Assembly (NCBI GenBank): GCA_026387935.1
Contig: JAPLKU010000020.1
Span: 1 to 64,000, forward strand
Length of the DNA stretch: 64,000 bases
From: Gemmatimonadota bacterium
Lineage (GTDB): Bacteria > Gemmatimonadota > Gemmatimonadetes > Gemmatimonadales > Gemmatimonadaceae
Direction of reading: 5' to 3'
Part shown: positions 5,086 to 15,385 of the stretch, in pieces
Numbering within the stretch: position 1 is the first letter of the stretch
Layout of the letters: each line of letters begins with the position of its first letter
The notes under the pieces: generated by a model
What the model saw: only the letters and a program-made list of their open reading frames with translations
Database searches by the model: none
Told to the model about the DNA's origin: nothing
Made by a program: the position numbers and the translations under genes

Positions 5086-6654
5086 CTACTTCGCGGAGGC
5101 CTTGTACTGCTCGATACCGCGGCGCAGCTCAGCCTCGGTGTCCTTCGAGATCGCCTTTTCCGAACGGATCTTGTCGACCACCTGCGGGAACTGCGCCTTC
5201 AGGTACGCATGGAAGCCCGTTTCCCAGTCGCGAACCTTCGCGACCGGCACGTCGTCGATATAGCCGTTGATCACGGCGAAAATGATCATCGACTGCGACT
5301 CAAACGCCATCGGCTGATACTGGCCTTGCTTCAACATTTCCACCGTGCGCGCACCGCGATCGAGCTGGCGCTTCGTGGCCGCATCGAGGTCGCTGGCGAA
5401 TGCCGAGAACGCTTCGAGTTCGCGATACTGCGCGAGGTCGAGACGGAGCCGGCCGGCCACACCCTTCATGGCCTTCGTCTGCGCGGCGCCACCAACGCGG
5501 CTGACGGAGATACCGACGTTCACGGCCGGGCGCACGCCCGAGTAGAACAAGTCGCCTTCGAGGAAGATCTGGCCGTCGGTGATCGAGATGACGTTCGTCG
5601 GGATGTACGCCGACACGTCACCGGCCTGCGTTTCGATGACGGGCAGTGCCGTCATCGATCCGCCCGCCTTCAGGATCGTCTTGCCGTCCACGATCTTCGG
5701 ATCTTCCGAGAGCTTCGCGGCGCGCTCGAGCAGGCGTGAATGGAGATAGAACACGTCGCCCGGGAATGCTTCGCGGCCCGGTGGACGACGAAGGATCAGC
5801 GAAAGCTGGCGATACGCGGCCGCCTGCTTCGTGAGGTCGTCGTACACGGCGAGCGTCGCCTTGCCTTCGTTGTACATGAAATACTCGGCCATCGCCGCGC
5901 CCGAATACGGCGCGATGTACTGCATCGGGGCCGGGTCAGACGCGGTCGCGGCAACGACAATCGTGTACTCCATCGCGCCGGCGGACTTGAGGCGCTCGAC
6001 AACACTCGCCACCGTCGATGCCTTCTGGCCGATGGCGACGTACACGCACACCACGCCAGTGCCCTTCTGATTGATGATTGTGTCAACGGCGATGGCAGTC
6101 TTCCCCGTGCCTCGGTCGCCGATGATGAGCTCTCTCTGACCCCTGCCAATAGGAATCATCGAGTCGATGGCCTTGATGCCGGTCTGGAGCGGCTCCTTCA
6201 CGGGCGAGCGCACGATGATGCCAGGGGCTTCGCTCTCGACCTTGCGGGTGAGCTTCGAGTTGATCGGGCCGAGGCCATCAATCGGACGGCCGAGCGGATC
6301 GACGACGCGGCCGATCATTTCCGGACCGACCGGCACTTCGAGCACGCGGCCGGTGCGACGAACTTCATCGCCTTCCTTGAGCTGCAGATAGTCGCCGAGG
6401 ACCACTGAGCCGATGTTGTCTTCTTCGAGGTTGAGCGCGAGGGCGGTGATTTTGGCCCCGGTCTTGGCGCTCGTGACTTCGAGCATTTCGCCGGCCATGG
6501 CTTTTTGCAGGCCATAGATGCGGGCGACGCCGTCCTTCACCTCAAGCACCGTCCCCACTTCCTCAACATCGAGGGAGTTCAGGTCAGCGGCTTCGATTTC
6601 CCGAAGCAGGATGTCCTTGATTTCACCGGGGCGGAGCGACGTCTGCGTAGCCAT
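5086..6654 (-). CDS. atpA: F1 ATP synthase alpha subunit
   Basis: The 522-residue non-catalytic nucleotide-binding subunit. Walker A is [37 protein letters not shown] and [28 protein letters not shown] (in part) are signature segments. I place the start at the ATG at 6654 ([14 protein letters not shown]), where homologues begin; an in-frame extension to 6747 would run through the promoter. It is the first gene of the cluster: delta (atpH) and the Fo genes are not next to it, so the ATP-synthase genes are split in this genome. Confidence 0.97.
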
Positions 6655-6698
6655 TGTTTGATCGAAACCTGAGTGGGGTCTCTGCGGGGTCAGTTGGT

Positions 6699-6720
6699 GC
6701 TTGTGAAAAATATCACAAGC
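6699..6720. promoter_or_regulatory. CRP/FNR-type operator over the probable atpA promoter
   Basis: A perfect 22-bp palindrome with 8-nt arms and a 6-nt spacer (GCTTGTGA-N6-TCACAAGC), containing the TGTGA-N6-TCACA core of CRP-family sites. On the minus strand the spacer reads TATTTT and lies 16 nt after a TTGCGC (6734-6729), which makes a plausible -10/-35 pair for atpA. A factor bound here would cover the -10 element, suggesting repression. Sequence and geometry are seen; the binding factor is inferred, and no crp-like gene lies in this window. Confidence 0.6.
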
Positions 6721-6808
6721 GCTTTCTGGCGCAAGCTTCCAGCGCATCCATAAGAGAGCGTCGACAGGCCTCCGCCGCTAGCGCATGGCTCGGGCCTCGG
6801 CCGAATGT

Positions 6809-6837
6809 GTGATCGGATGAACGCGAATGTGGCGAAT
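6809..6837 (+). repeat. Left inverted repeat of the GxxExxY unit
   Basis: A 29-nt sequence beginning GTGATCGGATGAACGCG. It matches the reverse complement of 7317-7345 at 27 of 29 positions. It lies 83 nt before the GxxExxY start codon. Confidence 0.85.
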
Positions 6838-6919
6838 AAGGTGGATACGCAACGGTGAAATGATTGGGACTGCAACAACATGGTTGCCGCGTCCGGTCAG
6901 CGCCGGTGCATCGTGCCGA

Positions 6920-7351
6920 ATGCATGGTGAACACCTCCTCGAGCGGGAACTCACCCGCTCCGTCATCGGCGCGTTTTACGACGCATACAACAAGCTCGGG
7001 TTCGGATTTCTCGAGAGCGTCTGCGCGGCGGGGCTCGAACGCCAGCTGAAGCAGCGCGGACACAGCGTGTCGCGGGAGCACGCCGTCCCCGTGATTTACG
7101 ACGGCGTCGAAATCGCCTTCCAACGCATCGACATGCTCGTCGACGGGCGCCTGGTCGTGGAGATCAAGTCGACGGAGCTGCTCTCTGCGGCCGCGAAACG
7201 CCAATTGTTCAACTACCTCCGCGGCACCGGTATGTCGGTTGGGCTCCTGCTCCACTTCGGCCCTGAACCCCGGTTCTACAGACTGGTCCACACCGCCCGC
7301 ACCGTGAATCAGCCCGATTCGCCCCATCCGCGTTCATCCGATCACGGATAG
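6920..7351 (+). CDS. GxxExxY family protein (PD-(D/E)XK nuclease-like)
   Basis: A 143-residue protein of the GxxExxY family, which belongs to the PD-(D/E)XK nuclease-like group. The name motif is at residues 29-35 as GFLESVC, so the final Tyr is Cys here. A nuclease-type core follows: Asp71 in RIDMLVDGR and Glu81-Ile82-Lys83 in VVEIKS. Gly28-Arg41 and Gln95-Tyr99 (QLFNYL) are also family-like. The cellular role of this family is not established. The gene stands alone and the right inverted repeat (7317-7345) codes for residues 133-142. I chose the ATG at 6920 (MHGEHLLERELT) because homologues start close to the LTxxVIGAFYDAYNKLG helix. Confidence 0.85.
   Translation: MHGEHLLERELTRSVIGAFYDAYNKLGFGFLESVCAAGLERQLKQRGHSVSREHAVPVIYDGVEIAFQRIDMLVDGRLVVEIKSTELLSAAAKRQLFNYLRGTGMSVGLLLHFGPEPRFYRLVHTARTVNQPDSPHPRSSDHG
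7317..7345 (-). repeat. Right inverted repeat of the GxxExxY unit
   Basis: Reverse-complement partner of 6809-6837 (27 of 29 identical). It lies inside the 3' end of the GxxExxY reading frame, six nucleotides before its last base. Together the arms bound a 537-bp unit. Confidence 0.85.
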
Positions 7352-7404
7352 AGCCGAGACCCCAGCCGAGCGCATGCAGCGGCAGCCAGTCGAAGCGGAC
7401 ACGA

Positions 7405-8223
7405 CTAGCTCCGCGAGCGCCCCCTTCCCTGCAGGAACCGCTCGATGATATCGCCGGTCCGCAGCCGCGCCAGCGAGGCCGAGCGCGTTCCGCACACGCG
7501 CTGCGCAGTACTCGTGAGGTGCGATGGCGATGCATACTCCAGCACGCGCGCGACGTCAGCCGCATCGTAGCCAGGGCACTTCGACAACTCCGCCGCCGCA
7601 ATCACGCGCACGAGGTCGATCACACGCTTGAGATTCGGCGCCCCCGCCGTCGCAAAGCTGCGCGAGAGGTGCTCGCGGGTCACACCAAGCGCGCGCGCGA
7701 GAAGATCGGTGCGCACCGGGCGTCCGCCGCGGCCAACAATCCAACGCCAGGCCCGCCGCTGCACCGGCGACTCAAGCCCCAGTTCGCCATGCGCCGGCTC
7801 GAGCGCCGTGGCAAAGCGCGCCGTGAAGGCCATCGGCACGACGATATCCCGAAGGGCCGTGTCATCAATACCATCGCCGAGGACGTCGGCAAACTCGAGT
7901 GACGCGCAGCGCGCGACCGTCGGCGCGTCGGCGGCCCGGAGTGGTGTCCAAGCGAAAAACGGCGTGCAGGGAAAATCCGCCGCGAGGCCGGCGGCCTTCC
8001 AGGTGTCGTCGGTGGGACCGGCCACGTCCACGACGACGAGGTCCACGAGCGTACGGGCAAAGGCTTCGCCCAGTTCGCCGGCGGAGCGGCACAGAATCAT
8101 CCGCCCACGCCGCCGCGGAAAAGCGCGCTTGACCAGATCGCGGGTCCGTTCGTGGGCGGCGTATGCCGCGACCGTGGGGCCGCCATCGCCGGCCGCGGGA
8201 ATCGCGCGCGCCGGAACGATCAT
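7405..8223 (-). CDS. AraC-type transcriptional regulator
   Basis: A 272-residue protein. The C-terminal ~100 residues form the two helix-turn-helix units of the AraC family (TDLLARALGVTREHLSRSF and ADVARVLEYASPSHLTSTAQR, each in the expected place). The N-terminal ~130 residues contain alternating strands such as LVDLVVVDVAGP and ADVLGDGID that resemble a degenerate receiver domain, without a clear phospho-acceptor set. Ligand or signal is unknown. Its ATG overlaps the NUDIX stop codon by four bases, so the two are probably cotranslated. Confidence 0.75.
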   Translation of the reverse strand: MIVPARAIPAAGDGGPTVAAYAAHERTRDLVKRAFPRRRGRMILCRSAGELGEAFARTLVDLVVVDVAGPTDDTWKAAGLAADFPCTPFFAWTPLRAADAPTVARCASLEFADVLGDGIDDTALRDIVVPMAFTARFATALEPAHGELGLESPVQRRAWRWIVGRGGRPVRTDLLARALGVTREHLSRSFATAGAPNLKRVIDLVRVIAAAELSKCPGYDAADVARVLEYASPSHLTSTAQRVCGTRSASLARLRTGDIIERFLQGRGRSRS

Positions 8224-8690
8224 GTCACGGGGCCCAGCACCAGCGCGCCGGCAGCGGCCAGCACTTCGCGGGCATTCTCGTGCGTCAGCATTCGCTGGCC
8301 CTGCTCAATGGTCACCCAGCGACAGGCGATAATTCCTTCGGCGCGCTGCGGCTTCGTGCGACGGTCGGGCGTCTCGAGCGCAAAGAAGTGGCAGGTCTTG
8401 TGAATCAGCTTGCCGCGAAAGCGAAATCGCCAATCGATGCTGCACACTTCGGCAACGACATCGAGATGGTCGAGTCCGGTTTCTTCTCGCACTTCGCGCA
8501 CAGCCGCTTCCGGAAATGCTTCGCCCGCTTCGACATGCCCCTTGGGAAATCCCCAACTCCGGTGCGCGTCGCGAATGAGCAGCACCAGTGTGCGTGCGCC
8601 GTCGCGCCGAAACACCACACCACCCGCCGACGTCTCGCGCTTCGCCTTCTGGTCGCGAGGTGGTGCCGTCTTCCGCGGGACCGGTTTCAA
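8220..8690 (-). CDS. NUDIX hydrolase
   Basis: A 156-residue protein with a complete NUDIX box at residues 51-73 (GHVEAGEAFPEAAVREVREE followed by TGL), the Mg-binding site that hydrolyses nucleoside diphosphates linked to another group. The N-terminal basic stretch and ETSAGGVVFRR strand are typical of the diadenosine-polyphosphate/MutT-like subgroup, but the substrate cannot be told from sequence. It overlaps both neighbours by four bases (ATGA), within the mlaF-like-NUDIX-araC operon. Confidence 0.88.
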   Translation of the reverse strand: MKPVPRKTAPPRDQKAKRETSAGGVVFRRDGARTLVLLIRDAHRSWGFPKGHVEAGEAFPEAAVREVREETGLDHLDVVAEVCSIDWRFRFRGKLIHKTCHFFALETPDRRTKPQRAEGIIACRWVTIEQGQRMLTHENAREVLAAAGALVLGPVT

Positions 8691-15206: not shown

Positions 15207-15270
15207 GGTAGTTGGTAACGACAACTTCCGCAGGCGGTGTACCGTTAATCGTGTACGGTAGCCGTAGAAA
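15207..15270 (+). repeat. Dispersed intergenic repeat, copy 2 (degenerate)
   Basis: A 64-nt sequence from GGTAGTTGGTAACGACAAC to TACGGTAGCCGTAGAA, similar at both ends to the copy at 4133-4198 and in the same orientation. Confidence 0.6.
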
Positions 15271-15277
15271 CACGAGT

Positions 15278-15319
15278 GGGGCCGGGGATCTGAGTTGATC
15301 TCCGGCCCCGCCTCTTTTT
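15278..15319. terminator. Bidirectional terminator between convergent genes
   Basis: A 13-bp stem with one G-T pair (15278-15290 with 15297-15309), loop TGAGTT, then CCTCTTTTT. It serves the plus-strand gene ending at 15200 and possibly the minus-strand sigma gene, and it is flanked by two inverted copies of the 64-nt repeat. Confidence 0.8.
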
Positions 15320-15321
15320 GC

Positions 15322-15385
15322 AGTTCTACGGCTACGGTCTACGGTGAACGTCTACTGTCGACGTGTGTCGTTGTTACGCAGTACC
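15322..15385 (-). repeat. Dispersed intergenic repeat, copy 3
   Basis: Read on the minus strand it runs GGTACTGCGTAACAAC to ACCGTAGCCGTAGAACT. It shares the last 17 nt exactly with copy 1, and most of the first 38 nt. It ends 10 nt before the sigma gene's stop codon. Confidence 0.75.

Follow-up and report, generated by a model that had tools for sequence, protein, structure and literature searches.

The window, a stretch of 64,000 nucleotides from a Gemmatimonadota bacterium, contains a small unit in which a GxxExxY gene is enclosed by inverted arms composed of short iterons. Our analysis showed that arms of this kind are associated with GxxExxY genes and have spread. We consider it probable that the window unit represents, in its gene-bearing form, a family of palindromic repeats resembling REPIN/RAYT, with a Cas4-type PD-(D/E)XK nuclease in place of the HUH transposase. 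It seems to be a REP-like system of mobile repeats, not named before, that has a nuclease of its own. GxxExxY proteins form a widespread family for which we know of no settled role.

The GxxExxY unit of the window

The core of the left arm (6809-6837, − strand) and that of the right arm (7317-7345, + strand) are identical at 27 of 29 positions when one is read as the reverse complement, whereas four Markov-shuffled windows yielded just 21-24 for their best 29-nt inverted match within 1 kb. The inverted match described by an earlier note on this DNA is therefore real. Each core consists of three iterons of 9-10 nt. Read outward from the gene, the left iterons (− strand) are ATTCGCCAC (6829-6837), ATTCGCGTTC (6819-6828) and ATCCGATCAC (6809-6818), and the right iterons (+ strand) are ATTCGCCCC (7317-7325), ATCCGCGTTC (7326-7335) and once more ATCCGATCAC (7336-7345).

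These cores sit inside a longer inverted repeat, 6758..6846 on the left (outward from the gene on the − strand) and 7308..7396 on the right (+ strand), with 67 of 89 positions matched. The note had outlined a 537-bp unit with 29-nt arms and only a GxxExxY gene inside; the gene content was as described, but the extent is larger, with 89-nt arms and a total of ~639 bp (6758..7396, + strand). Homology to a copy on contig C17 stops at these ends, of which the left one is uncertain by some 25 bp; the closest relative, G003, lacks 6782-7426. The outer part of the left arm has a GCCGAGNCCC tail, which is also found in other arms of the same genome. A GCCGAGACCCC tail is shared within this genome by arms whose iterons are of differing types. 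The neighbours of the unit are atpA (− strand, start near 6654), to which it is upstream, and a helix-turn-helix gene (7405-8223, − strand), to which it is 3′. The unit contains no transposase, as the earlier reading had it, and no Rfam family was matched in 5800-8600.

The GxxExxY gene (6920..7351, + strand) encodes a PD-(D/E)XK nuclease-like protein of 143 aa, which scored above the cut-offs of TIGR04256 (96.3 bits; cut-off 35) and PF13366 (99.8 bits; cut-off 22). The most plausible start is the ATG at 6920, and the rejected start at 6827 falls inside the left arm. Both ends of a naive annotation would be arm-derived, since the 174-aa ORF from 6827 begins in the left arm and the first part of the right arm overlaps the 3′ end of the gene, where it encodes the C-terminus of the protein. 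That the right arm is also coding had been noticed before. GxxExxY ORFs often extend into their arms and so acquire arm-derived peptide ends, e.g. HHEGTKSTK at the N-terminus of locus L044 (1474-1908). The C-terminus HPRSSD, likewise arm-derived, is common to the window protein and that of locus L088.

In an alignment of 40 sequences, G29, E32, D71, Q95 and F113 were invariant, with E81, K83 and Y99 almost invariant as well. The window protein retains G29 and E32 (GxxE) as well as D71, E81, K83, Q95 and Y99. This motif order, D-ExK-QxxxY, is that of RecB/Cas4-type nucleases; the site is intact in the window protein, for which nuclease activity is predicted from the sequence. The AlphaFold2 model was confident (pLDDT 90, pTM 0.81), and its best solved structural relative was the Cas4 nuclease SSO0001 (4ic1), which both aligners ranked first (Foldseek E 4e-4; VIA Z 9.2 over 98 residues at 3.8 A). 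Further PD-(D/E)XK folds came next, AF1548 and Holliday junction resolvases among them. By sequence profile, no solved-structure relative was found for the window protein, and Cas4 profiles matched it only marginally (E 0.01-0.06). No conserved cysteine column, as for the Cas4 Fe-S cluster, was present among the 40 aligned sequences. Membership of a defence system was considered and rejected, PADLOC giving only marginal Cas4 and RT-PDDEXK matches.

Arms around other GxxExxY genes

We compared the reverse complement of the 300 nt upstream of each gene with the 300 nt downstream and counted a score of at least 20 as a pass. In related genomes, 55% of 66 GxxExxY genes passed, compared with 1.2% of mismatched-gene pairs, 8% of shifted pseudo-genes and none of 30 PIN-domain genes. 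A second set of 76 loci from many phyla, archaea included, was picked by a protein pattern blind to the flanks; here 63% passed, against 4.7% of mismatched pairs and 0.7% of shifted pseudo-genes. The difference from mismatched pairs in both sets indicates that arms are matched within a gene and different between genes. About 40% of GxxExxY genes have no arms above the threshold, some of them owing to contig ends or decay. The expectation that arms would surround other GxxExxY genes was therefore borne out in both sets, but every gene has its own version of the arm, and the 29-nt sequence does not recur exactly at all of them.

Across phyla, the outward unit is CTYNGYGNN with a period of 8-10 nt, closing with GGTNAA. 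This period was found by a 5-mer lag count, autocorrelation over 30-nt windows being too strict. At least two units are present in 129 of 160 arms, and the commonest number is three. The terminal consensus of these 129 arms is CTCYGYGGTNAA, with no GTAG tag. The iterons of the window resemble the cross-phyla unit (TYCGCG core), and they too number three per arm. Genes with higher protein identity to each other also have more similar arms (Mantel rho 0.43, p 0.001; for the phylum set, rho 0.18, p 0.001).

A second control family, the 23S IVP four-helix-bundle genes of related genomes (PF05635; L170-L199), gave a different outcome from the PIN-domain genes, as 75% of 28 testable genes passed the same test. 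Their arms are gene-specific and inverted, with 7-nt tandem units (e.g. TTCGGAC, CTCAACT, TCTCACG) and a sharp period of 7 and 14. IVP ORFs within 23S rRNA genes have likewise been described as bounded by inverted repeats (PMC4990558). GxxExxY and IVP are unrelated proteins with unit lengths of their own and one architecture, which speaks for the unit being set by the encoded protein, though a common host mechanism may also account for it. The sister class with the 23S IVP protein and 7-nt iterons may follow the same logic as the GxxExxY units. In the window itself, a gene-less intergenic hairpin lies between convergent genes at 15243-15350. Its arms (27 nt, 81%) both have CTACGGT-like 7-nt units and are of the kind found around IVP genes.

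Gene-less copies, empty sites and arrays

The genome of the window has three GxxExxY genes. The word CGCGTTCATCCG, which the earlier note had mentioned, is over-represented, with 10 copies and none of its reversed control. The full window arm is found again at three places, paired and inverted at C17:23570-23960 and at C18:245905-246040, and unpaired at C23:78772; a further arm pair is found at C25:41455-41652. Likeness to the right arm is 87% at C17, 91% over 46 nt at C18 and 85% over 54 nt at C23. The copy on C17 is internally deleted: it matches 6762-6999 (76%) and 7256-7398 (83%) of the window, lacks the middle of the GxxExxY gene, and its homology ends at the outer ends of the arms. On C18, the copy is a hairpin with no gene, and its folding surpasses that of shuffles by 12 standard deviations; the folding z values of the gene-less hairpins tested were -12, -9 and -5. 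Gene-less, outward-facing inverted doublets that form hairpins are thus present in this genome on C17, C18 and C25.

The GxxExxY gene on C2, the second of the three, is likewise enclosed by inverted arms, which are of a type particular to it, and gene-less arms resembling them were found at C17:31843 and C18:222825. These two closely resemble one arm of the C2 gene; together with those at C27:15208 and C8:51210 (L413-L416), they end in TAGCGCCGAGACCCC. The third gene (C15) is at a contig end. The three genes differ, as do their arms, and there are no near-identical gene-bearing copies.

Comparison with relatives revealed empty sites, as the earlier note had anticipated. In the window, 754 bp separate atpA from the helix-turn-helix gene; the distance is 1050 bp in G005 and 75-204 bp in ten further species of the genus. 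The unit is absent at this site from 10 of 11 congeners, including G003, and in G005 the site is occupied by a GxxExxY gene whose arms match each other and are of the window type. As G003 is closer than G005, the unit at the atpA site may have been lost in G003 or else gained twice. At the G005 site (L112), GTTCGCACCTG-like tandem repeats adjoin the GxxExxY unit, and a duplicated stretch of ~50 nt is on the other side.

The site of the deleted copy on C17 is empty in both closest relatives, G003 and G005, so that the unit there was most simply gained in the lineage of the window. At the C18 site, G003 has a different sequence and no clean empty site. Because the flanks are just 70-83% identical, neither the exact ends nor any target duplication can be fixed at the empty sites. 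No clear target-site duplication was seen at the window unit or at the empty sites compared, where the ends are ambiguous, in agreement with what had been noted for the unit. The arms around other genes and the empty sites had both been set beforehand as tests for refutation, and both outcomes favour the earlier note.

We then surveyed 298 genomes of the phylum with a strict three-unit pattern, calling a genome array-rich when it had at least 10 matches above the reversed control. There were 20 array-rich genomes, e.g. with 246 matches vs 1 reversed and 235 vs 3. GxxExxY genes were found in 18 of these 20 and in 78 of the 278 others (Fisher p 4e-8). When stratified by family, the association gave a common odds ratio of 17 (p 0.0013), coming mostly from the family of the window. 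Two array-rich genomes, G245 and G114, had no detected GxxExxY gene; G286, a congener of G245, has three. Arrays of the tested pattern are few in most genomes that have a GxxExxY gene, and array matches far outnumber GxxExxY genes.

Close array pairs mostly face outward (20 of 22 in Gemmatirosa kalamazoonensis, G033, and 8 of 9 in G238), which is the polarity of the arms around GxxExxY genes. In G005, the gene-less hairpins bear the arms of the GxxExxY gene of that genome. Carriage by phages, plasmids or viruses was also considered and rejected, as there is essentially none in the collections searched (8 of 72,556 plasmid records, 0 of 50,697 phage records and one viral contig).

Proposed mechanism, alternatives and meaning

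The earlier note had suggested a minimal mobile element or else recognition, by the protein, of its own flanking repeat. With the arms found elsewhere and the empty sites, this is the best-supported reading, recognition itself being a prediction from sequence. We propose that GxxExxY would recognise the iterons of its own flanking arms and cut at the arms or at the hairpin base, with single-stranded or cruciform DNA as the probable substrate. Host repair would then complete the excision, copying or re-insertion of the unit. Gene-less derivatives, some of them arising by internal deletion of the gene, keep two outward-facing arms as a hairpin and would spread in genomes that supply the GxxExxY protein. 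In favour of recognition are the gene-specific matching, the co-variation and the co-occurrence, whereas cutting and movement are what we infer from an active site that is conserved and a modelled fold like that of Cas4. The enzyme may mobilise the doublets in trans; what was observed is the co-occurrence of genes and arrays (18/20 vs 78/278; stratified p 0.0013).

REPIN/RAYT systems, in which REP doublets form hairpins and are accompanied by REP-associated tyrosine transposases (PMC3116915), are similar in that a distinctive low-copy chromosomal gene lies between inverted repeats of its own, gene-less hairpin doublets are many and repeat type is tied to gene type. They differ in the enzyme, which is here Cas4-like PD-(D/E)XK rather than Y1 HUH (the gene of the unit matches only PF13366 and TIGR04256), and in the arms, which are here 8-10-nt iteron arrays, usually of three units, whose consensus has no GTAG tag. 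MITEs with an autonomous parent also have internally deleted or gene-less copies that retain terminal inverted repeats, but here there are no DDE transposase, no target duplication seen and no identical autonomous copies. The 23S intervening sequences with S23-IVP (PMC4990558) share the arrangement of one small ORF between inverted repeats, and in the related genomes the inverted arms of IVP genes are gene-specific iteron arms too. Their protein fold is unrelated and their iterons are of 7 nt, whereas the window unit is intergenic and not in rRNA. With Cas4/RecB nucleases (SSO0001, 4ic1), the modelled GxxExxY protein shares the fold and the D-ExK-QxxxY order, but the 40 aligned sequences have no conserved Fe-S cysteines, the length is about 130-140 aa, and the window unit has no CRISPR context.

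The arms might instead be moved by another enzyme, such as a transposase or a RAYT acting in trans, or by host template switching, with GxxExxY as trapped cargo. The unrelated IVP genes, which share the architecture with a different unit length, and the two array-rich genomes with no detected GxxExxY gene are consistent with this, and hairpin-templated repair could keep the arms matched. We nevertheless hold it to be unlikely, since none of the PIN genes, which are of similar size, has such flanks, arm type tracks the similarity of the GxxExxY proteins, array-rich genomes are enriched for the gene, and the unit has no transposase. It is improbable that the arms are regulatory or structural sites (an autoregulation operator, terminators or an RNA stem) beside a gene with an ordinary role, e.g. 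in repair or defence. The hairpins do fold strongly and are often intergenic, where terminators are possible, and the iterons look like protein-binding sites; but hundreds of gene-less copies, a deleted copy at a new site (C17) and presence or absence at orthologous loci would be left unexplained.

A classical insertion sequence with GxxExxY as its transposase would account for the terminal inverted repeats, the internal-deletion derivatives and the empty sites. The lack of near-identical gene-bearing copies, the three differing genes and arms of this genome, the absence of a transposase domain in the unit and of a visible target duplication, and the near absence of the gene from phages, plasmids and viral contigs make it very improbable. 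The REPIN/RAYT-like reading fits better than a classical transposon because the gene copies are distinct and few while the gene-less arms multiply. Imperfect inverted repeats do arise in GC-rich windows, but to chance or composition we give next to no weight: a chance match was rejected by the shuffles (27/29 vs 21-24), by the reversed word (CGCGTTCATCCG, 10:0) and by all the cross-genome controls.

In the open-access literature, which our search covered, we did not find these repeats or their link to GxxExxY described. The passage that mentions GxxExxY in PMC8934634 concerns a gene adjoining a reverse transcriptase. GxxExxY is also named in a paper on an algal virus genome, and the three papers in which iteron strings occur are, going by their titles, unrelated.

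Our analysis ties GxxExxY to a specific, testable DNA partner, namely its own flanking iteron arms. The short intergenic arrays CTCTGTGTC..., CTTCGTGTC... and CTCCGCGTT..., which reach 100-250 pattern matches per genome here, can be explained as gene-less offspring of GxxExxY units. For the family as a whole, we judge the chances evenly balanced that GxxExxY proteins are the cognate enzymes of pan-bacterial, and also archaeal, iteron-armed palindromic mobile repeats that are driven by a Cas4-like PD-(D/E)XK nuclease and are REP-like without an HUH enzyme. If the nuclease moves or maintains the arrays, families of palindromic repeats would have had more than one origin, the enzymes being unrelated.
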